From: a virus
Strand: one strand, 5' to 3'
DNA length: 58,171 bases
IMG/VR virus record: IMGVR_UViG_3300050131_000113
Coordinates: 1-58,171 of that record
A model generated the notes under the pieces. It had not been told where the DNA came from. It worked only from the letters and a program-made list of their open reading frames with translations, and searched no databases. Below, piece by piece: positions 4,708-57,878 of the stretch (positions within the stretch are counted from its first letter, which is position 1; each line of letters starts with the position of its first letter). A program made the position numbers and the translations under genes.

Positions 4708-4959
4708 CTAATCGAGCATGGCGGCATAGACCGCGAGCGCCGCGCGTGCGTTCGGCTTTCGCTTGCCGTCGATGAGATATTGCGCGCCGCGTTCGGAGAG
4801 CCCTGAGCGCTGCGCCAGGTTGAGCGCGGGCTTCGTGGGCCAGAGCGCCATGACGACGCGCCCGAATTTGGAAGATTTATCCGCGCACAAATTCTTTGGA
4901 ACAATTGTTCGGATGTTCTCACTCGACGGCGCGAGCGCGCCGTGACGTGATTCGGCCAT
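4708..4959 (-). CDS. Small HTH DNA-binding protein in the CII position
   Basis: The ATG at 4959 has GGAGAG about eight bases upstream. The 83-aa product carries a helix-turn-helix at about residues 45-80 (NLAQRSGLSERGAQYLIDGKRKPNARAALAVYAAML), the pattern of lambda-repressor-like folds. It is the second gene leftward of the Cro/YdaS gene, the place held by cII in lambdoid phages, with a stem-loop between the two (5061-5097). A transcriptional role early in infection is inferred from fold and position only. Confidence 0.68.
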   Translation of the reverse strand: MAESRHGALAPSSENIRTIVPKNLCADKSSKFGRVVMALWPTKPALNLAQRSGLSERGAQYLIDGKRKPNARAALAVYAAMLD

Positions 4960-6060: not shown

Positions 6061-6078
6061 GTTCACGAACTTGTGAAC
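6061..6078. promoter_or_regulatory. Inverted repeat GTTCAC-N6-GTGAAC
   Basis: A perfect 6-bp inverted repeat lies just after the lipoprotein stop. It is different in sequence from the TAGGT operators. It may be a binding site for another regulator or the stem of a weak terminator; there is no T-tract. Confidence 0.3.
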
Positions 6079-6114
6079 AGCCGCGCGAAAGATTAGATTT
6101 CGTCCTACCCATTA

Positions 6115-33547: not shown

Positions 33548-33796
33548 ATGATGATGAAGCTGTTTCAGATGCTGGTTTTTACCGCCGTGATGTTTTCCAA
33601 CATTCACTGGCAGTGGACGCCGAACGGTTACCTGGCGTCGCTGATATCGATCGGTGTGACGTTCATCGCGACAGTTTCGCTACTCTGGATCATCGATGTG
33701 TCACGGCGCGCTGCGAGATATATCAAGCCGCGGCGCGGTCGAGGCCATCAGCGCGTTTATCAGCGCACTTTTCCCCCCGCCTTGCCGCGGCGGTAG
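33548..33796 (+). CDS. Plus-strand moron: 82-aa membrane protein (possible)
   Basis: Three ATGs at 33548, 33551 and 33554. MMMKLFQMLVFTAVMFSNIH, then WQWTPNGYLASLISIGVTFIATVSLLWII, is a convincing two-helix membrane protein with counterparts in Rhizobiales phages. The last 30 residues are Arg-rich and overlap the 3' end of the convergent ejection-protein gene, so the C-terminus may be an accident of read-through. It fills a 207-base gap with no minus-strand gene. Confidence 0.5.
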   Translation: MMMKLFQMLVFTAVMFSNIHWQWTPNGYLASLISIGVTFIATVSLLWIIDVSRRAARYIKPRRGRGHQRVYQRTFPPALPRR

Positions 33797-35347
33797 TGGC
33801 ACGTAATTCGGATTCGGCAATGTCACTCCCGGGGTAACCCGGCTCGCGATCGTCGGGCTTTGGGTATTGGCGAGATTGGCCTGATGCAGCGGCGATCGAG
33901 CGCGCAGCATTTCATCCAGATTGTTGAAGCTGCGCCTCGTGATTGCATCGCCACCCATCTTGGAGGCCAGTGCTGCCAGCGATAGCGGGATCGAAGCGCC
34001 TCCGGTCAGTACAGCGTCCTGGGCATGGACGATACCCTTCAGGCCAGTGTCCGGGCCAAGCTTTCCCACCTGACGAAGCGTATTGCCAAGCCAGTTGCCA
34101 CGAATTCCACTTTCCAGCGCCGCCTTCTCGGCGTCGTTAAACCCTCCGGCACGCCTGAAATTATCCATGGCCAGCGGTCGCAATGCCTGCCGCGTGGCAT
34201 TATTGATATTGCCCCCTCCATAGGTGGAATCGGCCTTCAGATCAGCATTGCCAAGCCGGGTCTGGACTTCCTCCGCACGTTTTGCAGCACCCCAATTGCC
34301 CCCGGCTTCCTTCAAGAGATCGCCGGCCTTTTGCGCGTTGCCTTGAACCAGATCCGGTTGCCGCAGGTTTTCCAGGAACGAATTGACGTGCCCGATCGCA
34401 CGATTGGCGGCGACCGCATCGCTTGTCATGTTGCCGGTCGGGCTGCGATCGTCCGCGATGCGCCCCAGCACTTTCCGCACCGACTGGATGTCGTCGATCG
34501 AGGCCGGCTGACCGATCGAGCGCGCCATGCCCTGGTTCGGATTCGATAGTTCGCTGATCGCCGCAAACGTCTTCGGCTCATTGGCGGCGCGAAAGCCGCT
34601 ATTGGTGCCGTTTTCCAGATCGTTCTGAATCCAGTGGTGCAGGAACGAAACCGCATCGGGATGGATCTGCACGTCCTTGACGTCGGGATGATTGTATTGA
34701 GCCCGCGCAGCGTCTTTCAGTTCTTCCACGGTCGGAGCCGCGATCGACTTGGCCTTGTTCAAGACATCCGCAAGCCCGCCGCTTGCGACCGCGCCAGCAA
34801 CGCGCGCATAGGGTTCGGCCGCAGTCCCGGCTGTCAGTTGCCCCGCGGTCTCGCTGCCGATCGCGGGTGCGGCAACGCGCGTCAAGACCTTCGATAGCAG
34901 TCCCTCGCCGCCGCCCAACGCGGCAGGCGCGAATTCGCCGACGGTTTGGGCATACTGCCCCGGCACCGTCTCCGGCTTGTGGAAATCGCCAGTGACGCCC
35001 TCGATGCCCTTTTGGATGCCGCTGCTGGTCGGAAGGATCGGCCCCGTCGGTTCCGGTCCTTTGTCAAAGCCGAGCTTGTTGGCGATATAATCCGACGCGA
35101 CCTGGCTGCCTTTGGTAAGAAGATTGGCGGCGTCGCCGGGAAGTCCGGCAAGCCCGATCGCACCCTTGGCAAGCCCGATCCCGCCGCTCTTGGCGACGTC
35201 GGCCATGACAGACGGATGCGAGGCGTAAGCTGCCTTCAATTCGTCATCGGACATCTTGCTCAGATCAGGCGTCGCCGCAGATGGCACAGCGGGAGCGGCG
35301 TACATCGCCTTCAGATGATCGTCCGATAGCGCGGAAAGATCGGTCAT
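33701..35347 (-). CDS. Internal virion/DNA-ejection protein, 548 aa
   Basis: It starts with two short repeats (LSALSDDHLKAMYA and LSKMSDDELKAAYA), a feature of podovirus ejection proteins, followed by a hydrophobic Gly/Ala helix (KSGGIGLAKGAIGLAGLPGDAANLL) and long amphipathic helices. Downstream of the muramidase-containing 720-aa gene with ATGA overlap. Expected to be packaged in the head and ejected with DNA. Confidence 0.72.
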   Translation of the reverse strand: MTDLSALSDDHLKAMYAAPAVPSAATPDLSKMSDDELKAAYASHPSVMADVAKSGGIGLAKGAIGLAGLPGDAANLLTKGSQVASDYIANKLGFDKGPEPTGPILPTSSGIQKGIEGVTGDFHKPETVPGQYAQTVGEFAPAALGGGEGLLSKVLTRVAAPAIGSETAGQLTAGTAAEPYARVAGAVASGGLADVLNKAKSIAAPTVEELKDAARAQYNHPDVKDVQIHPDAVSFLHHWIQNDLENGTNSGFRAANEPKTFAAISELSNPNQGMARSIGQPASIDDIQSVRKVLGRIADDRSPTGNMTSDAVAANRAIGHVNSFLENLRQPDLVQGNAQKAGDLLKEAGGNWGAAKRAEEVQTRLGNADLKADSTYGGGNINNATRQALRPLAMDNFRRAGGFNDAEKAALESGIRGNWLGNTLRQVGKLGPDTGLKGIVHAQDAVLTGGASIPLSLAALASKMGGDAITRRSFNNLDEMLRARSPLHQANLANTQSPTIASRVTPGVTLPNPNYVPLPPRQGGGKSALINALMASTAPRLDISRSAP

Positions 35348-43744: not shown

Positions 43745-44101
43745 TTACGCGCTTAGGATGGCGCCCCAGGTCAAGCCATTCGAAATGAATATGGCTGATT
43801 TGCCGTTCGTGACGGAGAAGCCGGCGTTGAGTGTTCCACCATTGATATTCCCGCCGACCTGCGGATAGACCGTCAGAGGGCTACCGCCGCCATTGACGAT
43901 GATGTAGATGCCACGCTCGCCCAGGATGGCGCCGGTCGAGCCAGCGACCGTGCCGAAAATGGCAAAGTTCGACGCCAGTGCCAAGGCGCCGCCTTGTGTC
44001 GATCCCGTCGCGGTCAGAGTGGTTGCGGCAGGATCCTGACCGACGAGACCGGCTGCACCCGCGGCCATGCCGCGCGCCATGAATTCACTTTTAAGCGGCA
44101 T
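43745..44101 (-). CDS. Putative capsid decoration protein, 118 aa
   Basis: ATG 44101 with CGGAGA upstream. Gly/Ala/Thr-rich beta protein (TTLTATGSTQGGALALASNFAIFG, GERGIYIIVNGGGSPLTVYPQVGGNINGG, SAIFISNGLTWGAILSA), matching small decoration-like proteins encoded close to capsid genes. It overlaps the 3' end of the fusion enzyme gene by 11 bases. Confidence 0.62.
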   Translation of the reverse strand: MPLKSEFMARGMAAGAAGLVGQDPAATTLTATGSTQGGALALASNFAIFGTVAGSTGAILGERGIYIIVNGGGSPLTVYPQVGGNINGGTLNAGFSVTNGKSAIFISNGLTWGAILSA

Positions 44102-46067
44102 CTTGTTTCTCCGTTGGCAATTGGACAAACCAGCAGAAGTTCTCGCCGGTCTCCAGGTTGAGGGCGTGACGCGACACGAATTCATCGACGGCGCGCGTCA
44201 CGCCGAATTGGGGAAAAGCATGATTCTGGTAGTCGTGGCCGCACAGCCAGCCGCCGGGTTTGATCTTGCGCCGCCAGTCATAGATATCGGCACGACAACC
44301 GTCATAGGAATGATCGGCGTCGATGAAAACGAAATCGAGTGAGTGATTGGCAAAACGGAAAACTGCTGCATCGGAGCGCTCGCGCATGATCGTCGCCCGC
44401 TTCCCCGCGAACGTCACGCGCTTTTGCGCCCTGCAATAAAAATCATCCTGTGCGATCTGCGGCAGCCCCGCATGGAAGTCGCCGGAGCCATCGCGGTATG
44501 CGGCCCCGTGGCCTTCCCAGCTGTCGATCATCAGAAGCGAGAGATCTTCGCACCCCATCAACAGCGCTCGGGACAGTTCCCCCGCGAACACCCCGATCTC
44601 GGCGCCGACAAGTTCCTGACCATGCGCAAACCGCTTGAGTATTTCATGCGCGCGCACTTCCGCCGGCGACATGGTCTGGCGAAGATCCGCCGCGATATCT
44701 GGTAGCAACCCATGGCCGTGCACCGTGATCACTACGCCGTCGGCTTCATAGCCCGGCGCCAATTCCGCGAATTCGTTGGCCTGCCCCACCATCCACGGCG
44801 CGCATTTATAATGCTTGTCGCCATAGAGCACGTCCGTTATCGGATCGGAATCGTTGAGCGTCTGCGGGTAGGCGTGGTGCTGGTCGTCGTCGTAGGAGGA
44901 ATCAAACCCGTAGAGATGGATCTTGCGATAGCCGCGCGATATTGCAAGCGCCAGCGCGTTCATGCCTACCGTCGAGCCGCCGCCGATCAAATAGGTGACG
45001 CGGGCCTTTTCGTCCTTGAGTAATTCCGCCATGCCCGGCGAATTGGCGTGCCAGAGCGTGGTCCGGGCAGTTCCCGCCGCTTCGAATACCTCGGGAGCAC
45101 ATTGCGAGGCGATCAGATATTCCTTCGCGGGCCGCACGAATGCCAAATTCTCCGGACGGGCGTCCAGCAGCAACTGCGCCTCGATCTCGAGATCGGCGAG
45201 CACCACACCCGCATTGTTCAAGACCCAGACATCCTGCCCGATGCTCTTGCGCCAGAAAATCTCCGGCAGCATCCGCCGCACCGATGGCCCGCCCCCGATA
45301 ATCGCTACATGCCGGTCGTGTTCATCGTTCTGCGCATCGAACCAGGCAAGATTCCGCGCGCAAGCCGATCGCACGTTGGAAAACAACGCCTCTTGCGCGG
45401 TATTGATAACCTTCTTCAGTTCCGCGTGCGAAAGGCCGCCGACCTTCCAGACCTTCGGCACCCAGCCTTCGGTCACTTCATGCGGCCGCGGGTGCCCGTG
45501 AAACGCCACCACGGCGGCCTCATTCGGAATTCCGCGCGTCTTCTTGTACGACACAAACATGCCGGGATATCGAACCTGCAACCGCTCCCGCCCCACAACC
45601 AAGGAACGCTCGATCCATGCCTGGTCGCCGCCGGGATCATCCGTCGGGCAGCCGGCCGCCTTGAAACTTTCCCAGATGTGGGAATGAAGGCCCGCCTCCC
45701 ATGCCATGACAGAGGATTGCAAACCCAGCGGGCGGTAAAAATCCGCCAGAATTCCAAAATCCCCGTCGTAAGCCGCCAACGCATCGATCGCGCCCGTGAT
45801 GACGGTATCGAGATCGAAGAACAAAACCCGGTCGCCCTGCGGAAACAACCCATCGCGAAACAGCGCCAGTTTGCTCCACCATCCCGGCAGGTCCGCCGGC
45901 AGAGGTTCGGTCGAAATATCTTCCGGCAATTCTTCCGGCCGGTCGGTAAAGCACACAAAGCGGCCTTCGAAACCTGCCTCAAGGTTTCGGGCAACCATGT
46001 CCTTTAAGTTGAGGACGTAGGCCGGCGAGAACATCTCGCCGGCCCGGATGCAGCAAACATGCAGCAT
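44091..46067 (-). CDS. Glycosyltransferase - DUF115-like - SAM methyltransferase fusion, 658 aa
   Basis: AAGGAAG precedes ATG 46067. Three domains: (1) about 1-215, a GT-A-like glycosyltransferase with VLFFDLDTVITG (DxD at 85-87); (2) about 253-400, a DUF115/MptE-like Rossmann domain with HVAIIGGGPSVRRMLPEI, GQDVWVLNNAGVVL and YLIGGGSTVGMNALALAISRGYRKIHLYGFD; (3) about 480-650, a class I methyltransferase with GAEIGVFAGELSRALL (SAM motif) and DFVFIDADHSYDGCRADI. It sits between the capsid and decoration genes and is co-transcribed with them, so virion or surface-glycan modification is likely. Confidence 0.82.
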   Translation of the reverse strand: MLHVCCIRAGEMFSPAYVLNLKDMVARNLEAGFEGRFVCFTDRPEELPEDISTEPLPADLPGWWSKLALFRDGLFPQGDRVLFFDLDTVITGAIDALAAYDGDFGILADFYRPLGLQSSVMAWEAGLHSHIWESFKAAGCPTDDPGGDQAWIERSLVVGRERLQVRYPGMFVSYKKTRGIPNEAAVVAFHGHPRPHEVTEGWVPKVWKVGGLSHAELKKVINTAQEALFSNVRSACARNLAWFDAQNDEHDRHVAIIGGGPSVRRMLPEIFWRKSIGQDVWVLNNAGVVLADLEIEAQLLLDARPENLAFVRPAKEYLIASQCAPEVFEAAGTARTTLWHANSPGMAELLKDEKARVTYLIGGGSTVGMNALALAISRGYRKIHLYGFDSSYDDDQHHAYPQTLNDSDPITDVLYGDKHYKCAPWMVGQANEFAELAPGYEADGVVITVHGHGLLPDIAADLRQTMSPAEVRAHEILKRFAHGQELVGAEIGVFAGELSRALLMGCEDLSLLMIDSWEGHGAAYRDGSGDFHAGLPQIAQDDFYCRAQKRVTFAGKRATIMRERSDAAVFRFANHSLDFVFIDADHSYDGCRADIYDWRRKIKPGGWLCGHDYQNHAFPQFGVTRAVDEFVSRHALNLETGENFCWFVQLPTEKQDAA

Positions 46068-46598: not shown

Positions 46599-47630
46599 TC
46601 AAGCCGTGATGACGCCCTGGAGGAACCGATTGCTCATCGTCATATTGGCGGCGAGCGCGATCAGTTTCACCATGGCATCCTGGTTGACCGAGAACCGATC
46701 CGGATCGAGCGGGACCATGTTGCGGTCCTGATGCGGGCGGTAGTGGATGAAGTCGGTATTGAGCATGTACATGTGCGACGCCGGAGCGCCGCTACCGCTC
46801 AACCACGATCCGCCGGCACCGAGCACCGAGACATTGCCCGCGGTCGTTCCCTGGAAACCGCCGTCATAGACGACATCGGCATCCATGAACTTCAGCGAGG
46901 AAAAGCCCGCCATCCCGGATTTTTCATCCGTGATGCGCTGGATCGCCTGCAACGACTCCCAGTAGTACCGATAGTAGACGTTGTCGGAGATGATGAGGTC
47001 CGGACGATCCGGGCCCCGCGCCTGGGCCAGCCACGCGCGGTTCATCATAGTCTGCATCGTTGCCGCACCCGGCGTCAATCCGTTCGACGCGAAGCTCTGC
47101 AGGTTGTTCTGCCAGAACCCCCAGACGGAAGAATCGATTCCGCCTACCACGCCGGAGTTGTTGACGTCGGCGACGAGCAATTGCAGACCACCGATCTGTT
47201 TGCCGCCGTCGGCCGTGCCGTTCGAGTAGCAGTCGTTCGAGATGTTGTTCTGCATGGTGCGTTCGGCGTTGCCGATCCGCGATTCCAGCAGATTGATCAT
47301 CTTTTCTTTGCCGGCGTTCTGCAGTATTTCCAAACCGGAAATGGAGACAGCGACGGCGGCTTGCGCTATCGGAAACTGAGCTGCCGTAAAAACATCCGAA
47401 GGGCTTACATTGAGAATATCGTAGCCGGAATAACGCTTGAACGTGCCGTTTTCCGAATACTCCATCTCCTGCACGATGGCTTGGCCACCATCGAAGGTCT
47501 TGATCTTGCCCTTCTGCGAAAGACGCCGCAGCAAGGCGTTGTTCTTAGTGACATTGTCGGCCAATTTCTTGGACCGATTGAAGAGAGTAGTCGTCGTTAT
47601 CTCTCCCCAATTCGTGTTGGGAATCGCCAT
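46599..47630 (-). CDS. Major capsid protein
   Basis: 343 aa, HK97-type expected. MAIPNTNWGEITTTTLFNRSKKLADNVTKNNALLRRLSQKGKIKTFDGGQAIVQEMEYSENGTFKRYSGYDILN, then FTAAQFPIAQAAVAVSISGLEILQNAGKEKMINLLESRIGNAERTM (the long-helix region) and NTDFIHYRPHQDRNMVPLDPDRFSVNQDAMVKLIALAANMTMSNRFLQGVI, as in phage capsid proteins of podoviruses. It follows the scaffold gene. Confidence 0.88.
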   Translation of the reverse strand: MAIPNTNWGEITTTTLFNRSKKLADNVTKNNALLRRLSQKGKIKTFDGGQAIVQEMEYSENGTFKRYSGYDILNVSPSDVFTAAQFPIAQAAVAVSISGLEILQNAGKEKMINLLESRIGNAERTMQNNISNDCYSNGTADGGKQIGGLQLLVADVNNSGVVGGIDSSVWGFWQNNLQSFASNGLTPGAATMQTMMNRAWLAQARGPDRPDLIISDNVYYRYYWESLQAIQRITDEKSGMAGFSSLKFMDADVVYDGGFQGTTAGNVSVLGAGGSWLSGSGAPASHMYMLNTDFIHYRPHQDRNMVPLDPDRFSVNQDAMVKLIALAANMTMSNRFLQGVITA

Positions 47631-50227: not shown

Positions 50228-50466
50228 GCGGCCCTCTTTATCAGGAGGGAGATATTCCACTCATCACACGGGTCTTGGCTTGGCTTCTCAGACATTGCGG
50301 AGACCCGTAAATAGGCGTTATGCGCCGTGAGTGCCGTTGCGATAATCCGCTTCAAATCATCGGATGATATCGGATCACTATTTTTTCCGACACAAGCGGA
50401 GTGGGAGCGAAGTGTGTTGAGCCATGCGTGCTCAATTGCCTCCAGAGACGGATAATCCTTACTCAC
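50224..50466 (-). CDS. Hypothetical protein, 80 aa
   Basis: Coupled to the portal gene (50463 overlap) and to the next. MSKDYPSLEAIEHAWLNTLR, then SDDLKRIIATALTAHNAYLRVSAM. Helical; not recognised. Confidence 0.6.
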   Translation of the reverse strand: MSKDYPSLEAIEHAWLNTLRSHSACVGKNSDPISSDDLKRIIATALTAHNAYLRVSAMSEKPSQDPCDEWNISLLIKRAA

Positions 50467-52907
50467 TGCAATTCCCTCGCGCCACGCGATGCGACGTTCT
50501 GTTCCCGCGTCATGGCAATATCGCGTTCGTTCGCGACGCGCTGGCCCTCAAGCGCAATTTCCGCTTCACGGTGCGGAGCTTCCTGTGCTGCCTGATCCGC
50601 TACCTGCTGCGTCTTCTGATTTTGTATCATCAGCAGCGTGGCGTTCTTCTCCCGCGCGATGGTGACCGCATCGGAAGATTTCTGGGTTTGAGCCGCTGCG
50701 TCCACCGCTGCCGTCTGCGTTTCAGTGGCAGCCCTGGTCTCGGTCTCGTGCACCTTGGCCGCGATCTCGGCGGGATCCGCACCCTGCTTGCCGGCTGGCG
50801 CTTTGCCATCCTGGCCGGTCGCCTTCGGGTTAGGCGGCATCTGCGCAATAGCGGCGAACGCCTTTTCGATGGTTTCCTCCAGCGGACGCGCCACGCGATA
50901 GCCGCGCACCACAAACAAGGTCATTTCCTTGGCCATGTCGGCCATCGCCGGATTGCCTTGCGCGATCGGGATCACGGTTTCCATGAAGGGCACGAACTGC
51001 TGCATGAATTCGGTGCGGGCTTTCTTTTCGGCTTGCTCATCGGGAGCGATGGTAGAGTCGGCCTCGATGTCGATCCGGAAGCCGTGCACGCCATCCTGTT
51101 TGATCAGGGCGACCGCGGCGTCGAATTGCTGCTGCTTTTGCTGGTTGGCCTGCGTCAGTGCCTGCACTTGTTGGGCGACCTGCTGCCACTGCGCCATTTG
51201 CTGCTCATAGGCCTGCATCTGCGGCGACGGTGGCGCGGGTTGCGGCGCTGCCGCCGGCATCCCTGGCTGACCACCATTCTGTGGCATGCCCTGCGGCTGG
51301 AGTGCTTGCGGAGGCGCTAATTGAAGCGGCTGCGGCGGCATCTGCGGCTGCGGCGGCAATTGAGGAACCGGCGCGAGCTGCGGATAGCCCGTCACTTCCG
51401 AAATCGTCTTGGCCGAAAAATGTTCCGCGATCACCCCGCCGATCAGCCGGAACATGTCGCGGGCGAACCGGGCAATCGATTTCTGCTGCGGCGTAATGCG
51501 CCGGGTCGAAAAGTTGGCTTTCAACTCCTGCGCACCCAGTGTTTCGTCCGGAGACGTCATGCCGCGCATGATGTCGCCGATGCCGGTGATTTCGTACAGG
51601 ATGTTCTTGACGCGGTCGCGCGCGTTGTAGAGTTGAATCAGGGTTTCGGCGACCTGCTGGATCGGCAGCCACTGGACCATGTCCTTCAGGCTGCCGCTGT
51701 TGGCGAAGGCCGCGAAATCTTGCACAGGGATCAGCTGGTTGTCGCCGGAATCGAACAGCTGCTGCAAAACCTGCTTGTTTTCGCCGGGATAGATGCCCTT
51801 GACCGCAAGCGCCTGGGTCAAGACGTCGATCCGCGCCGTCAGCTTGTCGAGTTCGCGCGCCTGGTCCTGATATTCGATGAAATCGGGAACTGGGATCCGC
51901 TTGTCGTTGGTGGTGGTCGCAAGACACGGATTGGGCGACGGGAAAAATCCCGGCAGCTTTAGGGGATCATCCTGCTTGTCGAGAATGAGATCGGGCGTTC
52001 CCGGCGCAAGCCAAATCGCCTGGCTTTTGGTCTTGTCCCAATATTCGTGAACGACCGCCTTCTTGAACATGTCCGGCGGCGGGTTTTCCTTTTCCTCCGA
52101 GCCAGAACCCTTCGGCGTGAAGTCGAGATTGACGGCGTTGCCCTTCTTCTTGCCGAACCGATTTACCAGATCGTCGCGTGTCAGGTATGAGCGATAGCGG
52201 ATCCATGGCACTTCCTGCCATTTGCGCGCCGGACCCTCGCGGTAGTCTTCCCAGAACACATAAGCCGGCTTTGCCTCTTCGTAAGTCACTTCGCGCAGCG
52301 GCTCGGCTTCGTCCTTTGCACCCTTCTTTTCGCCGGCCTCGTCGTCGCTTTCGTCACCGGGATTGTCGACGATAGAGGGCGAGGAATTGGCGTTGGCGAA
52401 TTCGGCATTGCCGCCCGCATCGGGCTTCGGCGCGGCGGCGTCTTTGATCTCGTCGCCGAAATGCGGAACGTACAGCACCCGCGCGGTGCCGCGGCCCGGT
52501 AGCAAGCGGTCTTCGGTGACCGCTCCCATCATGTCGTCGAAATCGAATTGATCCGCCGAAAACGTGATGCAGCGCTCCAGTAGCGTCGAGGCCAGCCGTG
52601 CGGTCGGATCGTCGTCGCGGAAACGGCGCTCGACATCGGCCTTGGGCGTGCGCGCATACAGCGTCGGGATCAGGGTCTGGACGTTCGACCACAGGATGTT
52701 GAAGCGGTTGGTTTGTTTGTCGGCCTCAGGACGCTCGTCGCGGTAGCGCTGCACGATCTTGCGGGCTTGCTTGATCCATTTGCGCTCTTCGCGTTCGGCG
52801 ATCTTCTCCTGGCCCATCCAGTAGGCATAGGTCGCATCGGGCTCGGAGCCGAGATCCTTGCGAGTCTCGATGGTGCCGGTCTGGTTATTGGAGACGGGAT
52901 CAACCAT
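50463..52907 (-). CDS. Portal protein, 814 aa
   Basis: YAYWMGQEKIAEREERKWIKQARKIVQRYRDERPEADKQTNRFNILWSNVQTLIPTLYARTPKADVERRF is the N-terminal signature of large podovirus portals; EYWDKTKSQAIWLAPGTPDLIL, FPSPNPCLATTTNDKRIPVPDFIEYQDQARELDKLTARI and TSPDETLGAQELKANFSTRRITPQQKSIARFARDMFRLIGGVIAEHF give the wing/stem core. The C-terminal 200 residues are Pro/Gln-rich and helical (barrel). It forms the 12-mer DNA gate. Confidence 0.92.
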   Translation of the reverse strand: MVDPVSNNQTGTIETRKDLGSEPDATYAYWMGQEKIAEREERKWIKQARKIVQRYRDERPEADKQTNRFNILWSNVQTLIPTLYARTPKADVERRFRDDDPTARLASTLLERCITFSADQFDFDDMMGAVTEDRLLPGRGTARVLYVPHFGDEIKDAAAPKPDAGGNAEFANANSSPSIVDNPGDESDDEAGEKKGAKDEAEPLREVTYEEAKPAYVFWEDYREGPARKWQEVPWIRYRSYLTRDDLVNRFGKKKGNAVNLDFTPKGSGSEEKENPPPDMFKKAVVHEYWDKTKSQAIWLAPGTPDLILDKQDDPLKLPGFFPSPNPCLATTTNDKRIPVPDFIEYQDQARELDKLTARIDVLTQALAVKGIYPGENKQVLQQLFDSGDNQLIPVQDFAAFANSGSLKDMVQWLPIQQVAETLIQLYNARDRVKNILYEITGIGDIMRGMTSPDETLGAQELKANFSTRRITPQQKSIARFARDMFRLIGGVIAEHFSAKTISEVTGYPQLAPVPQLPPQPQMPPQPLQLAPPQALQPQGMPQNGGQPGMPAAAPQPAPPSPQMQAYEQQMAQWQQVAQQVQALTQANQQKQQQFDAAVALIKQDGVHGFRIDIEADSTIAPDEQAEKKARTEFMQQFVPFMETVIPIAQGNPAMADMAKEMTLFVVRGYRVARPLEETIEKAFAAIAQMPPNPKATGQDGKAPAGKQGADPAEIAAKVHETETRAATETQTAAVDAAAQTQKSSDAVTIAREKNATLLMIQNQKTQQVADQAAQEAPHREAEIALEGQRVANERDIAMTREQNVASRGARELQ

Positions 52908-53505: not shown

Positions 53506-53750
53506 TCGGACTTCACCACTGCAATGCCTCGCAACAGGAAATTGTCTTGTTCGATGTCGGTTGCTTTTGCGACGGTGCGGCCCTGGCGCTCTTGCACGTC
53601 GCGCATTTCGATGAGCGCGCGATCGAACGTGTCGGCATCGACTTGAAGCGGGTTTCGGACTTGCCAGAGCGGACGGGCGTCGATTTGGCGGGTGAGATCG
53701 GCGAGCGTCGGGGCCTCGAGCTGCGGGGTTGTGCCGATGTCGGCCATCAA
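53502..53750 (-). CDS. Hypothetical protein, 82 aa
   Basis: LADLTRQIDARPLWQVRNPLQVDADTFDRALIEMRDVQERQGRTVAKATDIEQDNFLLRGIAV. Small helical protein coupled to TerL (ATGA). A head-completion role is possible but unproven. Confidence 0.62.
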   Translation of the reverse strand: MMADIGTTPQLEAPTLADLTRQIDARPLWQVRNPLQVDADTFDRALIEMRDVQERQGRTVAKATDIEQDNFLLRGIAVVKSE

Positions 53751-55279
53751 ATCCGCTCCCGGTTTAGTTTCGGCGAGGCCAGCTTGAACGCTTCGTTCAT
53801 GGTCATTTCGGTCATGCCGCGGAGCGGCTCGACCGTATCGGCGGCGATGCCTTTGATCATGCGGTCCAGCAGCTGGCCGATGAGCCCGAGCGCGTCGACC
53901 TGGTCGTCATGCTTGCCGGCGGGAAAACTCAATAACTCGCTGCGCAGCTCTGGATACCAAGGCGCGTTGAACGGCGCATACAAACCTTCGAGCGCCATTC
54001 GGCCCCGGATCGATTGCGCCCGGATCGATTTATCACCTCGTGTCGGAAACGCTTCACGATAGCAATAGGCCTGGCGCTCGCGCTGCCTCCGATCGAGATA
54101 GGGACCGATGCCGGCGCGGATCTGGCCCTGCTCTTCGGCCCACGCAAGAGGTTTCCATTGTTTGACGAGATCGCAGAACGCTTCAACCCAGACATCCGAC
54201 GCCGCCTGGCCGCGCCAGAGGTCGAGAAGATACATCCGGCCGATCGGATCGAGCCCGACTACGATATGGACGGTATAATCGCCCCCATTGGCCGTGACGG
54301 CATAGTCGGAGGCACCATAGATACGCAGGGTTTCGCGCGGAGGCACCGTTTCGTATGGCATGAGCCATTGGATCTTGAAGTAATCGCCCTGCTCAGGTGC
54401 CGGCCGCTGCTGATAAAGCGCCGACCAGGTGCGCGCGGGCGTATTTGTCGAAAGATCGCGCAACTGTTGGCCATAACCATAGGCATCGTCGTTCCACAGC
54501 GGCTCGCCGAGTTCGCGGCCTAGCGGATCATTGGCCTCGGCAAGCGCCGGCAACGAAAGAACCTTCCATTTCTTGTGCTGTAAAGCGCGCCCCGCCAGAT
54601 CATCCTCATGCCAGCGCGTCTGGATTAGAATCTCCGCAGCACCAGGGACAAGCCGCGTGCGGAAATCGTTGATATACCAGTCCCAGATGCGGTCGCGGAT
54701 CAATTCGCTGTCGGCATCCTGCCGTGAGCGGATCGGATCATCAATTAGCCCAAGCCGGGCCCGGAAGCCGGCAATGCCCGTTCCGACGCCGGCGGCAGAA
54801 TATTCTACCCCGTTCGTGAGTGACCATCGTTCCGCCGCCTGGCTATCTCCGGCGAGCGAGATACGAAGGACGTCGGAATGTTCGACGATCAGGTTACGGA
54901 CCTGGCGGCCCCATCTTCGCGCGAGATCGGTCGTATGCGAAGCGGCCAGAATGTTCCAGTTGCAGCTTGCAAGCAGCCAAGGTGGAAACAGGACGCTGGC
55001 ATATTTCGATTTGGCAGAGCCGGGCGGCATGAAGATCGCAAGATTGGTCGTCTCGCCGTGTGCTACTTTTTCGAGTTCGGCAATCAACAGCCGATGGTGG
55101 GCGGCGGGCCTGTAACCGCAGAGGGCGCACCAGCTTGTGAGGCTGCCCTTCAGCGACCGGTATTCCCGCTCGGATTCGGTTAGCTGACGGCGATACTCCC
55201 GCTCCGCCTTGATTTCCTCAAGCGGCGGCAGCGTCTCCGGCAGCGCGTACAATGATTTCGAGAGAGGCGAGATGTTCAT
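53747..55279 (-). CDS. terL: Terminase large subunit
   Basis: 510 aa. ATPase: Walker A FMPPGSAKS (84-91), ASHTTDLARRWGR, Walker B LGLIDDP (175-182) and ILIQTRWHEDDLAGR; nuclease: GASDYAVTANGGDYTVHIVVG (first acidic residue), LAWAEEQGQIRAGIG and HDDQVDALGLIGQ (last acidic cluster). It packages the genome through the portal. The start overlaps the TerS 3' end by 62 bases, and no ribosome site is visible, so a start within TerS translation is likely. Confidence 0.95.
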   Translation of the reverse strand: MNISPLSKSLYALPETLPPLEEIKAEREYRRQLTESEREYRSLKGSLTSWCALCGYRPAAHHRLLIAELEKVAHGETTNLAIFMPPGSAKSKYASVLFPPWLLASCNWNILAASHTTDLARRWGRQVRNLIVEHSDVLRISLAGDSQAAERWSLTNGVEYSAAGVGTGIAGFRARLGLIDDPIRSRQDADSELIRDRIWDWYINDFRTRLVPGAAEILIQTRWHEDDLAGRALQHKKWKVLSLPALAEANDPLGRELGEPLWNDDAYGYGQQLRDLSTNTPARTWSALYQQRPAPEQGDYFKIQWLMPYETVPPRETLRIYGASDYAVTANGGDYTVHIVVGLDPIGRMYLLDLWRGQAASDVWVEAFCDLVKQWKPLAWAEEQGQIRAGIGPYLDRRQRERQAYCYREAFPTRGDKSIRAQSIRGRMALEGLYAPFNAPWYPELRSELLSFPAGKHDDQVDALGLIGQLLDRMIKGIAADTVEPLRGMTEMTMNEAFKLASPKLNRERI

Positions 55280-55805
55280 CGGACAACTTTGAAAGATCCA
55301 ATAAGGGAGCCCCGCCTTTACCCGTCACTTCGGCTTTACTCGGCGCCTTGAATCCGTGCATGTCGCGGAGCTGCGCCAAGGCCTGCAGCGCGTTGTCTCG
55401 GTCGAAGTCGGTCAGGCGCCCGGTGTCCTTGTCGAACTTGAAGCCGGAAATGATCGCGCTGTAGGGCGAGACCGCGACCTTGTTCCAATCAATATCGGGA
55501 TCGCCTGTCGCGGCGATGGTCGAAAAATCGAAGATATTCCCGAAAGCCGCCAGCGCCAGCCTCTCTTCGATCCGGGCGCGCTTGGCCGCGATCATCGCGT
55601 CGTCCTGGCCCAGCGAGCGGAAATAGGCGATCTGCGCCTGTACCGATTTGTCGGCCTCCCATTTGGTGGCAAGCCCGTTTTCGACCTTGCCGCCAGCCCT
55701 TCGGCAGGCTTCCGCCGGCGGAATCCCCAGGGAACGCTCGAACGCGAACGTTTTCTTCTGCGCACTGATCTTGCGCGGGGGCTGCACGGCGAGCGAGGCG
55801 GACAT
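55218..55805 (-). CDS. terS: Terminase small subunit
   Basis: ATG 55805; the longer frame crosses terminators and is rejected. 195 aa: ISAQKKTFAFERSLGIPPAEACRRAGGKVENGLATKWEADKSVQAQIAYFR is the HTH of the Terminase_2/phBC6A51-like small subunits, then RIEERLALAAFGNIFDFSTI and ALQALAQLRDMHGFKAPSKAEVTGKGG. It recognises the packaging start site. First gene of the late operon, right after the stem-loop leader. Confidence 0.88.
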   Translation of the reverse strand: MSASLAVQPPRKISAQKKTFAFERSLGIPPAEACRRAGGKVENGLATKWEADKSVQAQIAYFRSLGQDDAMIAAKRARIEERLALAAFGNIFDFSTIAATGDPDIDWNKVAVSPYSAIISGFKFDKDTGRLTDFDRDNALQALAQLRDMHGFKAPSKAEVTGKGGAPLLDLSKLSDEHLASLEIIVRAAGDAAAA

Positions 55806-55847
55806 CAAGGATTCCAAAAGATTCCGGGCTGACTCAGTTTTGCCTGA

Positions 55848-55887
55848 AAAAGGGGCCGCCCTCGGTAGCAAAACCGCAAGGCGGCCC
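55848..55887 (-). terminator. Terminator-like stem-loop in the late leader (proximal)
   Basis: On the minus strand GGGCCGCC pairs with GGCGGCCC, with an inner CGGT/ACCG pair, and is followed by CTTTTTCAGG. It lies only about 45 bases before the TerS start, so anything transcribed from upstream must pass it. Confidence 0.65.
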
Positions 55888-55906
55888 AAGTCTAGGGGGG
55901 CAGCGA

Positions 55907-55924
55907 TGGCGCGAGCATGCGCCA
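55907..55924 (-). other. Perfect hairpin TGGCGC-N6-GCGCCA between the leader terminators
   Basis: Six-bp perfect stem with a 6-base loop, no T-tract. Placed between two terminator-like stems, it may be a recognition element for an antitermination factor, or a protein-binding dyad. Confidence 0.4.
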
Positions 55925-55943
55925 GCACTAACCTATGGATAGC

Positions 55944-55974
55944 AAAAAGCCCCGCGCGTTGCCGCCGGGGCTTT
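55944..55974 (-). terminator. Strong rho-independent terminator after the NusG-like gene
   Basis: Minus strand AAAGCCCCG and CGGGGCTTT form a 9-bp stem with an 11-base loop, followed by TTTTTGC. It stands about 70 bases past the stop of the 56042-56728 gene and separates the early/replication arm from the late operon. Confidence 0.82.
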
Positions 55975-56041
55975 GGTCGGCTGAGGGAATTACCTTCCAT
56001 GCTACGCCAAAAGCGTGACCCCCGAAGGGTGTCTCGCCTGG

Positions 56042-56728
56042 TCAGGATTCGGATGGTGGAATGTCCTCTTTTGCCGCCACAACGCGGCTGATTCTTCCGA
56101 ACGCCTCAACGAATAGAATTGTCTGCTGAGTCGTGTCAAGTATCGTATGGGTGACGGAAGTGGATATGCCCCGCTCTTCGGCGGCTTTGGTCGGTTTGAT
56201 GACGGCGAGCCGCAGTTGTTTGGCGGTCACGCTGGCATCGCAGCGGTCGAATTTGCCGTCATATTCGGCCAGCCGCAGCATCTCGATCTCATAGTCATGA
56301 ATGACGGCGAAGCTTTCGCCGACCAGGCAAACCCCGCACATGCCGTTGAGGTCGAACAGCCGAACCAATGAATAGGACCCGAACAGCCTTCGCAGGAAGA
56401 TGTAATCGGCGTAGGGCGTGCGAACGTCCTCACGTAGGACGACTTGCTTTTGGTTGCGCTTTTTCGGTCCAACATAGCGATCCGGCATCCGCGACAGGTG
56501 GCGGCCCTGCGGGAACCAGACCTCGAAGCCCTCCCGCATCAGGGCGATTTTTGCTGGAGCATGCGATTTGGGCTTTACCCGGGCGATCCACCAAGGGTCG
56601 AAACAGTGCAGTTCTGAAGGGTCGGGTGACGAGCCGCTGGCGCGTTGATGGCGCCGGACGTCGATATTGGCCAGTGCCGCCATGACATCGGGCGAGAATG
56701 CGTCCTTCAAATCCTTCAATGCCTGCAT
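56042..56728 (-). CDS. NusG-family paralogue (candidate late antiterminator)
   Basis: ATG 56728 has GAGG about nine bases upstream; the longer frame overlaps the initiator gene. 228 aa. Residues 45-152 follow the NusG N-terminal (NGN) fold: DPWWIARVKPKSHAPAKIALMREGFEVWFPQG, RTPYADYIFLRRLFGSYSLVRLFDLNGMCGVCLVGESFAVIHDYEIEMLRLA, matching W-x-x-x...Y-x-F/L-V, LVR and the end helix. NGN domains bind RNA polymerase and aid elongation. The C-terminal 75 residues are not an obvious KOW. Directly followed by two terminators and the late operon, which suggests a specialised RfaH/LoaP-like antiterminator. Confidence 0.78.
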   Translation of the reverse strand: MQALKDLKDAFSPDVMAALANIDVRRHQRASGSSPDPSELHCFDPWWIARVKPKSHAPAKIALMREGFEVWFPQGRHLSRMPDRYVGPKKRNQKQVVLREDVRTPYADYIFLRRLFGSYSLVRLFDLNGMCGVCLVGESFAVIHDYEIEMLRLAEYDGKFDRCDASVTAKQLRLAVIKPTKAAEERGISTSVTHTILDTTQQTILFVEAFGRISRVVAAKEDIPPSES

Positions 56729-56747: not shown

Positions 56748-57878
56748 TCACTTGAAATCCGCCAGTTCCGCTTCGGAAAGTTCGGCTGGAGGGGGACCGG
56801 TTGGGTAGATTTTGCCTTCGACGGAGGGCGGCCATGGCCACGGGGCGCGGTCACCTTCGGCTAGATGCTTTCGGACCTGGACGGTGACGGTTTCGCGGAG
56901 GAAACCTTCCCATGCCGCGGCTTGCTGCCGGTTGAGGGTTTCCCATTCGGACGGTTGCGGCGATTGAGCCAGCGCGAGCAGCCGAGGCGTCATCGGCGGG
57001 CGATAGCGCACGGTTCCATCGGTACCGCGGAGGATTACCCGGAAGGCCTCGCCAGCGCCGGCGACGTCGTAGGCGATGGCGATGGCGATGGCTTCCGGAC
57101 TGCCCTTGGCGTAGGCCACCGAAACCGCCGGTTCCTTGGCCTGGTCGAGCAGCGTCCAGCGCTTTTCCTCGAGGTAGCGCCACCCGGCGGGAACGTTTTT
57201 GCGCCCAAGTCGTTTGAGATTTTCCAGAAACGGCCCGATTCCGGCGATGGCGGCTGTTTCCTCGTCCTCGGAAAGCGCGCCAGCGGCATAGGCCGTTCGC
57301 TGGCGATCGTCGGCGGCGGCTGTTGGCCACCTGGCTTCGAAGGTTACGAGGAATCTTGCTTGCCGATCTCGCGCGCGCGCATCTCTCTCACGTTCAAGGT
57401 GGGGACGTTCTAAGGGGACGTTCTTGGTGCCATCGTATGGAATGGCACCCGTGCCAACCCCAGGGGTTGGCACGGGGGTGCCAACCTGTTGGCACCCCCC
57501 CTCATCAGATGTGGTTTCTGCATAGCTTTCGCCGTCGTCGGTTTCAGCTCCTTCGGCGACCGCTTCGAAGGCAAAATCGTCACGGTCAAGCAATACCCGA
57601 TACGCATGGGAGCGCGAGGGTCGCTTGCCGGCTTCCTCGACCTCGACGTCGCGGCGCTTCTTTTCCACCCATCCGGCGACGTAAAGCCGTTCCAGCGAGT
57701 TTTGCAGGGATGCGCGGGAACAGTCGATTTCCTGGGCCATCTTGACCTGGCTGCGGAAACACCATCCGGCTTTGTCGGTATGGCGGCCGAGCAGGCAGAG
57801 CACCTGAAGGTCGCGCGGCTCGAGCGAGCGGTCGGTGACGGCGCCGGCGGGGATGATGGAAAAGCGGGGATGGCTCAA
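56748..57878 (-). CDS. Phage replication initiator (lambda O-like) with winged-helix N-terminus
   Basis: 376 aa. Residues 10-78 (AGAVTDRSLEPRDLQVLCLLGRHTDKAGWCFRSQVKMAQEIDCSRASLQNSLERLYVAGWVEKKRR) are a winged-helix DNA-binding domain like those of phage O-type initiators. The middle is a low-complexity linker whose coding DNA holds iteron-like dyads (57426-57495), as in lambda ori inside gene O. The C-terminal half is helical (LRETVTVQVRKHLAEGDRAPWPWPPSVEGKIYP). No helicase or helicase-loader gene was recognised nearby, so a host DnaB is probably recruited. Confidence 0.75.
   Translation of the reverse strand: MSHPRFSIIPAGAVTDRSLEPRDLQVLCLLGRHTDKAGWCFRSQVKMAQEIDCSRASLQNSLERLYVAGWVEKKRRDVEVEEAGKRPSRSHAYRVLLDRDDFAFEAVAEGAETDDGESYAETTSDEGGCQQVGTPVPTPGVGTGAIPYDGTKNVPLERPHLERERDARARDRQARFLVTFEARWPTAAADDRQRTAYAAGALSEDEETAAIAGIGPFLENLKRLGRKNVPAGWRYLEEKRWTLLDQAKEPAVSVAYAKGSPEAIAIAIAYDVAGAGEAFRVILRGTDGTVRYRPPMTPRLLALAQSPQPSEWETLNRQQAAAWEGFLRETVTVQVRKHLAEGDRAPWPWPPSVEGKIYPTGPPPAELSEAELADFK
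57426..57495. other. Candidate replication origin: three tandem dyads inside the initiator gene
   Basis: GTGCCAACCCC-A-GGGGTTGGCAC (57451-57473) and GTGCCAAC-CT-GTTGGCAC (57478-57495) are perfect inverted repeats; GGTGCC...GGCACC (57426-57449) is a weaker third. Their centres (57437.5, 57462, 57486.5) are 24.5 bases apart. The arrangement matches the lambda plan of symmetric iterons within the initiator's own gene. Confidence 0.68.

Follow-up and report, generated by a model that had tools for sequence, protein, structure and literature searches.

A predicted NusG paralogue, P0001, is encoded between the early and late genes of virus record IMGVR_UViG_3300050131_000113 (58,171 bp; hereafter the window, meaning the whole stretch of DNA that was analysed) and is separated from the virion-gene operon by a short leader with two terminators, T1 and T2. 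Given this gene order, the pair of terminators, the lack of any sigma-70 match and the precedent set by RfaH and LoaP, we favour, with moderate confidence, a reading in which the paralogue would allow RNA polymerase to continue past T1 and T2 and enter the late operon. The combination of NusG gene and leader is found in many viruses of alphaproteobacteria and looks like an undescribed late-gene switch. Already known are antiterminators of the NusG-paralogue type, late antiterminators of phages, and the alpha-r8 sRNA. No report of late antitermination by a phage NusG, of a NusG-leader module, of the element termed E1 below or of alpha-r8 leaders in phages was found in the open-licence literature searched, and the main text of the paper on Sinorhizobium phage phi2LM21 makes no mention of NusG or antitermination, though the gene is annotated as NusG. 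To our knowledge, little is known of how late genes are turned on in phages of alphaproteobacteria.

Table 1. Features of the window from the end of the early region into the late operon.
Feature	Position	Strand	Basis
Replication-initiation-like gene, last early gene ahead of NusG	56748..57878	-	PHROG 270 (E=1.5e-11); homologues and gene order
Predicted phage NusG paralogue P0001	56042..56728	-	Held-out phage NusG profile (E=1.3e-15); Pfam and PHROG weak; a modest model has fold matches to NusG/RfaH
UUCG-capped hairpin GACACCC-UUCG-GGGGUC, 11 nt into the leader, just past the NusG stop	56017..56033	-	Read from sequence
Terminator T1 (AAAGCCCCG...CGGGGCTTTTT)	55944..55974	-	Read from sequence; strict test; recurrence of T1 in the leader class
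Degenerate alpha-r8/MmgR-type leader (CATAGGTTAG, hairpin, core remnant, T2)	55847..55937	-	Covariance model built without the window
Hairpin P1, first stem-loop of the sRNA-like leader (perfect hairpin of the first-pass annotation, 55907-55924)	55903..55928	-	Covariation in relatives
Terminator T2 (GGGCCGCC...GGCGGCCCCTTTTT), terminator of the sRNA-like leader	55848..55887	-	Read from sequence; strict test; covariance model
Small terminase (TerS), first late-operon gene	55218..55805	-	Relatives at 50-69% identity, placed ahead of TerL
Large terminase (TerL)	53747..55279	-	PHROG 38 (E=8e-94)
Portal, late operon	50463..52907	-	PHROG 12082 (E=2.6e-173)

The P0001 gene sits between the replication gene and TerS/TerL, confirming the proposal of the first-pass annotation that a NusG paralogue occupies a position like that of lambda Q. 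Homologues of the replication gene are found in Bradyrhizobium phage ppBdUSDA122-1 (53% identity) and in phage phi2LM21, and a NusG-like gene comes next in both. The TerS assignment rests on position and on like-placed relatives, the nearest of which (locus L155) also has NusG ahead of TerS. From 55.8 kb down to about 18.2 kb the window carries an array of minus-strand genes that includes head, tail-fibre and endolysin genes; the earlier figure of roughly 37 kb for a one-directional late operon is thus about right, a few small contested plus-strand ORFs aside. A consensus scan gave no sigma-70-like promoter match in 52.0-58.2 kb, a result to be read with the ability of such scans to miss alphaproteobacterial or phage promoters; the scanned region includes the interval between 55848 and 55805, where a strong promoter had been named as an argument against the switch. 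Within the head-gene region, a minus-strand ORF (44091-46067) encodes a protein of 658 aa whose N-terminus resembles a glycosyltransferase and whose C-terminus resembles a methyltransferase. Two different minus-strand genes of the window, at 33701-35347 and 46599-47630, have matches among PHROGs named "major head protein" (21712 and 9953).

The P0001 gene starts with ATG and encodes 228 amino acids. Public profiles recognise the protein weakly: the Pfam NusG score of 15.2 bits is below the cut-off of 22.2, PHROG 6386 ("transcription antiterminator") matches at E=0.075, and Pfam KOW gives no match. A phage-NusG profile rebuilt without P0001, however, found it among 7,204 ORFs with E=1.3e-15 over residues 44-216, and an iterative search of the same number of ORFs seeded with the NusG of L155 gathered 62 family members, P0001 included. 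The NGN domain that characterises the NusG/RfaH/Spt5 family is thus recognised by the held-out profile, Pfam alone being sub-threshold, and the NGN-like domain reported earlier for this gene is borne out. In the C-terminal domain (CTD) the canonical KOW motif is degraded, though the profile alignment reaches residue 216; this domain is weakly conserved. AlphaFold was uninformative with the single sequence (mean pLDDT 36). With P0001 and eight phage NusGs in the alignment it returned a modest model (mean pLDDT 54), whose best PDB matches are NusG or RfaH; since the alignment already contained NusGs, these matches, which answer the earlier suggestion of a structure prediction, are supportive but not independent. 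Taken together, the comparisons identify P0001 as a predicted divergent phage NusG paralogue.

As a direct query P0001 retrieved no relative in the phages, viral contigs or genome contigs searched, and weak matches only in 398 genomes of one order. Relatives were instead reached through the neighbouring genes (TerL, TerS and the replication protein). A search of the 398 genomes with PHROG 6386 was swamped by housekeeping NusG. Each of two Bradyrhizobium genomes that carry related phage NusGs contains three genes with a NusG domain.

Leader elements are the site of action of both RfaH and LoaP, and LoaP reads through intrinsic terminators (PMC12691694). The phage paralogue resembles RfaH in its family and would, like it, owe specificity for a single operon to a leader element; it differs in being phage-encoded and in its putative target, an operon of virion genes. 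The ops element of RfaH (GGCGGTAG) was not found in the window leader by reading, and the GGnGGCTTGTG of E1 is only loosely reminiscent of it. With LoaP of Bacillus velezensis the proposed system would share a NusG paralogue, a leader hairpin and read-through of intrinsic terminators (PMC12691694). LoaP, however, needs a dfn-type UNCG hairpin, whereas the window has a single UUCG hairpin, and phylum and target differ. The position between early and late operons and the terminators ahead of the late genes are as for lambda Q. In contrast to lambda, the protein belongs to the NusG family (Pfam and PHROG yielded NusG-type matches only, and no homology to Q), and a late promoter bearing a binding site of the Q type could not be recognised. 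In the gene transfer agent of Caulobacter, the antiterminator GafZ serves a phage-type structural cluster in an alphaproteobacterium (PMC11150451), but it is not a NusG paralogue and acts with host NusG, NusA and NusE. Protein ATE84644.1 of phage phi2LM21 and PHROG 6386 represent the same family in the same gene order and are annotated by name only.

The 236-nt leader (minus strand, 56041-55806) contains, in order, the UUCG-capped hairpin, T1, P1 and T2, and is followed by TerS, TerL and the portal gene. The three structures listed by the first-pass annotation (a terminator at 55974-55944, a hairpin at 55924-55907 and a stem at 55887-55848) are all readable directly on the minus strand. The whole leader folds with z=-3.6, one of 200 shuffles being equally stable. 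T1 and T2 both pass a strict terminator test, although shuffles of this GC-rich sequence contain at least one such terminator in 32% of cases; these statistics being modest, it is the comparative evidence that carries the case. The UUCG hairpin, a single example, is a candidate recruitment hairpin.

The 3' half of the leader resembles the corresponding sequences of L155, L193 and L194. A core common to these three loci, TGCCCTCCTTGGGCGTTTCCTCCCTAGACTTGG, occurs in at least 120 viral contigs, and Rfam assigns the core loci to RF00519 (alpha-r8/MmgR, also "suhB") with E-values down to 5e-14; scores at or above gathering were obtained in L155, L209, L214, L250 and others. MmgR is a 77-nt Hfq-dependent sRNA of Sinorhizobium meliloti (PMC7143759), and its family has a characteristic 10-mer and has spread partly by lateral transfer (PMC12559287). 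In the phages, the layout of this leader class is NusG, T1, YATAGGKTRTGCGG, P1, the sRNA core and T2, then TerS/TerL, often with an HNH gene; a -10-like YATAGGKT motif follows T1. Rfam gave no match in the window at the gathering threshold. A covariance model built from 15 leaders, the window excluded, nevertheless scored 33.6 bits at 55937-55847 (E=1.7e-6), against 15.5 bits for the next match, and its alignment shows the window copy to be missing about 17 nt, including the conserved 10-mer core TTTCCTCCCT, around which the rest aligns. RF00519 itself gives 21.2 bits against a cut-off of 41, for which reason the window copy is not filed under that family. By sequence the window leader is best described as an alpha-r8-class leader from which the 10-mer core has been deleted, with P1 and T2 as its remains. 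The terminators and the hairpin of the first-pass annotation stand; what that annotation missed is that its "perfect hairpin" and second terminator are left over from an alpha-r8/MmgR-type sRNA leader.

Unlike the known family, the NusG-linked copies lie between NusG and TerS. Among 64 alpha-r8 loci with more than 1 kb of upstream sequence, 29 have a NusG gene within 1 kb upstream on the same strand and 35 have the element without it. T2 need not, therefore, have evolved as a target of antitermination, and P1, whose stem covaries in relatives (93.8% standard pairs against 83.8% after shuffling, 0/5000 as high), belongs at least partly to the sRNA because similar hairpins occur in several NusG-less copies. 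In 32 of 37 leaders the sRNA-like element has T1 no more than 95 nt upstream, against 11.4 expected. Copies of the alpha-r8/MmgR type in L213, L228, L265, L197, L208 and L241 are found without NusG beside other phage genes, capsid- or scaffold-like by appearance, and some have a clear -35/-10. In Bradyrhizobium phage ppBeUSDA76-1 (L315:1994-2671), the NusG slot ahead of a 95-bit leader match holds a protein annotated as "ABC transporter substrate-binding protein" (WAX24340.1), which by eye resembles a phage NusG. A reading of the GGGCGTTTCCTCCC element as a cos site was rejected, since it matches RF00519 and accompanies different terminases.

A second leader class goes with the NusG clade of L018. 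There, a strongly conserved element, E1, consists of CAAATCrGT, CGGCCGGT, a loop and ACCCGCCG, followed by GGGnGGCTTGTGTC; it is a new element, of Bradyrhizobium-type phages. A scan of viral contigs with the E1 core yielded 27 matches, 26 of them with the full element, and NusG lies just upstream in nearly all of these 26 that have enough upstream sequence. E1 is also present in two Bradyrhizobium chromosomes. Its stem is paired in 97% of cells, one position appearing as G-C, A-U, C-G and G-U; with most positions invariant, the support from covariation is real but small. Several E1 leaders have no strong intrinsic terminator, and E1 leaders share no element with that of the window. Matches to the E1 pattern in Rhodobacteraceae were dismissed as coincidence because all fall in one conserved coding-like sequence with no NusG nearby. 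A short viral contig, L115, carries both an alpha-r8 leader (4838-4931, plus strand) and an E1 element (6076-6095, minus strand).

Comparison of leaders in related phages, as proposed in the first-pass annotation, shows that NusG, leader and terminase recur together in many phages, with the two leader classes just described. Among 80 loci chosen by TerL similarity only, L018 is the sole record with such a NusG, which precedes TerS and is separated from it by a terminator; searching from this NusG gave further phages with the order NusG, leader, terminase. Those of the 62 family members that are in loci with a located leader nearly all end within 1 kb upstream of it, L238 being the exception. 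Behind NusG-linked leaders, most of the large ORFs encode the large subunit of a terminase, at least four types being represented (TerL_ATPase/nuclease, Terminase_6, GpA and Terminase_3), which indicates that NusG and leader travel as a pair, independently of the terminase. Of 34 leaders, 19 contain a strict terminator oriented in the late direction, whereas dinucleotide shuffles give an expectation of 2.2; a lenient definition was abandoned as too permissive (17/29 against 9.75 expected). Because the compared sequences are related, all such counts are of records and overstate the number of separate events. In 52 of the 80 TerL-relative loci, no convincing alpha-r8-class leader was detected, the best score being 21.7 bits, compared with 33.6 for the window. 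The phage NusG is tied to one operon with a leader element by gene order and by the conservation of the leaders, and the gene order suggests that the paralogue is dedicated to the late operon.

From the family, the gene order, the terminators and the recurrence with unrelated terminases, all observed, we infer the following course for read-through, protein binding and targeting. Before the paralogue, the product of the last early gene, is made, polymerase leaving the early operon would halt at T1, and polymerase in the short leader past T1 would halt at T2. Once accumulated, the protein would bind elongating polymerase through its NGN domain, targeted to the leader by a cis element; candidates are the P1/YATAGGKT region or the UUCG hairpin in the window and E1 in relatives. 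The complex would then resist termination at T1 and T2 and go on to transcribe terS and the rest of the late operon. As to the late antitermination switch of the first-pass annotation, the protein family, the Q-like position, the presence of two terminators, the lack of a sigma-70 match and the recurrence all speak for it; T2 need not, however, have evolved as an antitermination target, since the sRNA family is also found in viral contigs with no NusG upstream.

As the main alternative, the leader might be an sRNA gene: T1 would end the early operon, T2 would be the sRNA's own terminator (degenerate here), the late genes would be transcribed from an unrecognised promoter near or after T2, and the NusG paralogue would act elsewhere. 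The RF00519 scores above gathering at the homologous place in relatives and the wide distribution of the core agree with this, as do the NusG-less copies, 5/31 of which have promoter-like TTGAC-N16-18 sequences. Yet NusG precedes a large share of the copies (29/64), and in NusG-linked copies TTGAC is rarer (1/31 against 8/31 of the others) and a YATAGGKT-type motif commoner (19/31 against 2/31). The gap between T2 and TerS, moreover, is only about 42 nt and has no sigma-70 match, and in the window the core is deleted while T1, P1 and T2 stay, which fits a kept terminator/hairpin function and leans towards the read-through reading. We regard an sRNA gene of this kind as a rather unlikely explanation. 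It seems conceivable, and about equally tentative, that one leader has two outputs: ended at T2, it would be an alpha-r8/MmgR-type sRNA possibly acting on host messages, and with the phage NusG the same RNA would be extended into the late operon, the window keeping the switch without the sRNA core. In that case the change of output from sRNA to virion genes would be made by NusG.

Still less probable is that the paralogue is a general processivity or anti-Rho factor with no specific leader element, its place before terS being a matter of timing only. General NusG biology, the weakly conserved CTD and the lack of an element common to E1 leaders and the window leader would suit such a factor; against it, conserved structured elements are kept in the leaders of both NusG clades, and E1 adjoins NusG across different terminases. 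Packaging (cos/pac) elements, with incidental hairpins, would account for conserved sequences immediately upstream of TerS/HNH/TerL, and a separate GGAATC-repeat motif does track TerS relatives. This we consider very improbable, since terminases of at least four types accompany the E1 and alpha-r8 leaders, the core represents an sRNA family of Rfam and is found also behind other phage genes away from NusG, and the hairpins covary.

Under the preferred reading, that of read-through of T1 and T2, a module of NusG and leader that can move between unrelated terminases would bring the NusG family into the set of known phage late antiterminators and would provide a compact system for studying how NusG paralogues find one operon. 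That late leaders of phages contain alpha-r8/MmgR, a widespread sRNA family of their hosts, bears on that family's spread.

In related phages without NusG, the pre-TerS slot is occupied by DUF6362 (L045:6354-7130), by PHROG 9306 (L156:3849-4805) or by PHROG 21451, with weak DUF6456 similarity (L024:6410-6976; PHROG 21451 also at L020:177-749). The pattern would agree with a general slot for late regulators in which one occupant can replace another, and some of these proteins may be unrecognised late regulators. Immediately 5' of TerS in the window (55809-55845, minus strand) lies a motif, AACTGAGTCA...CGGAATCWTTTGGAATCC, a candidate TerS-binding or packaging site, that is present whole or in part in L155, L159, L194, L204, L268 and L296.
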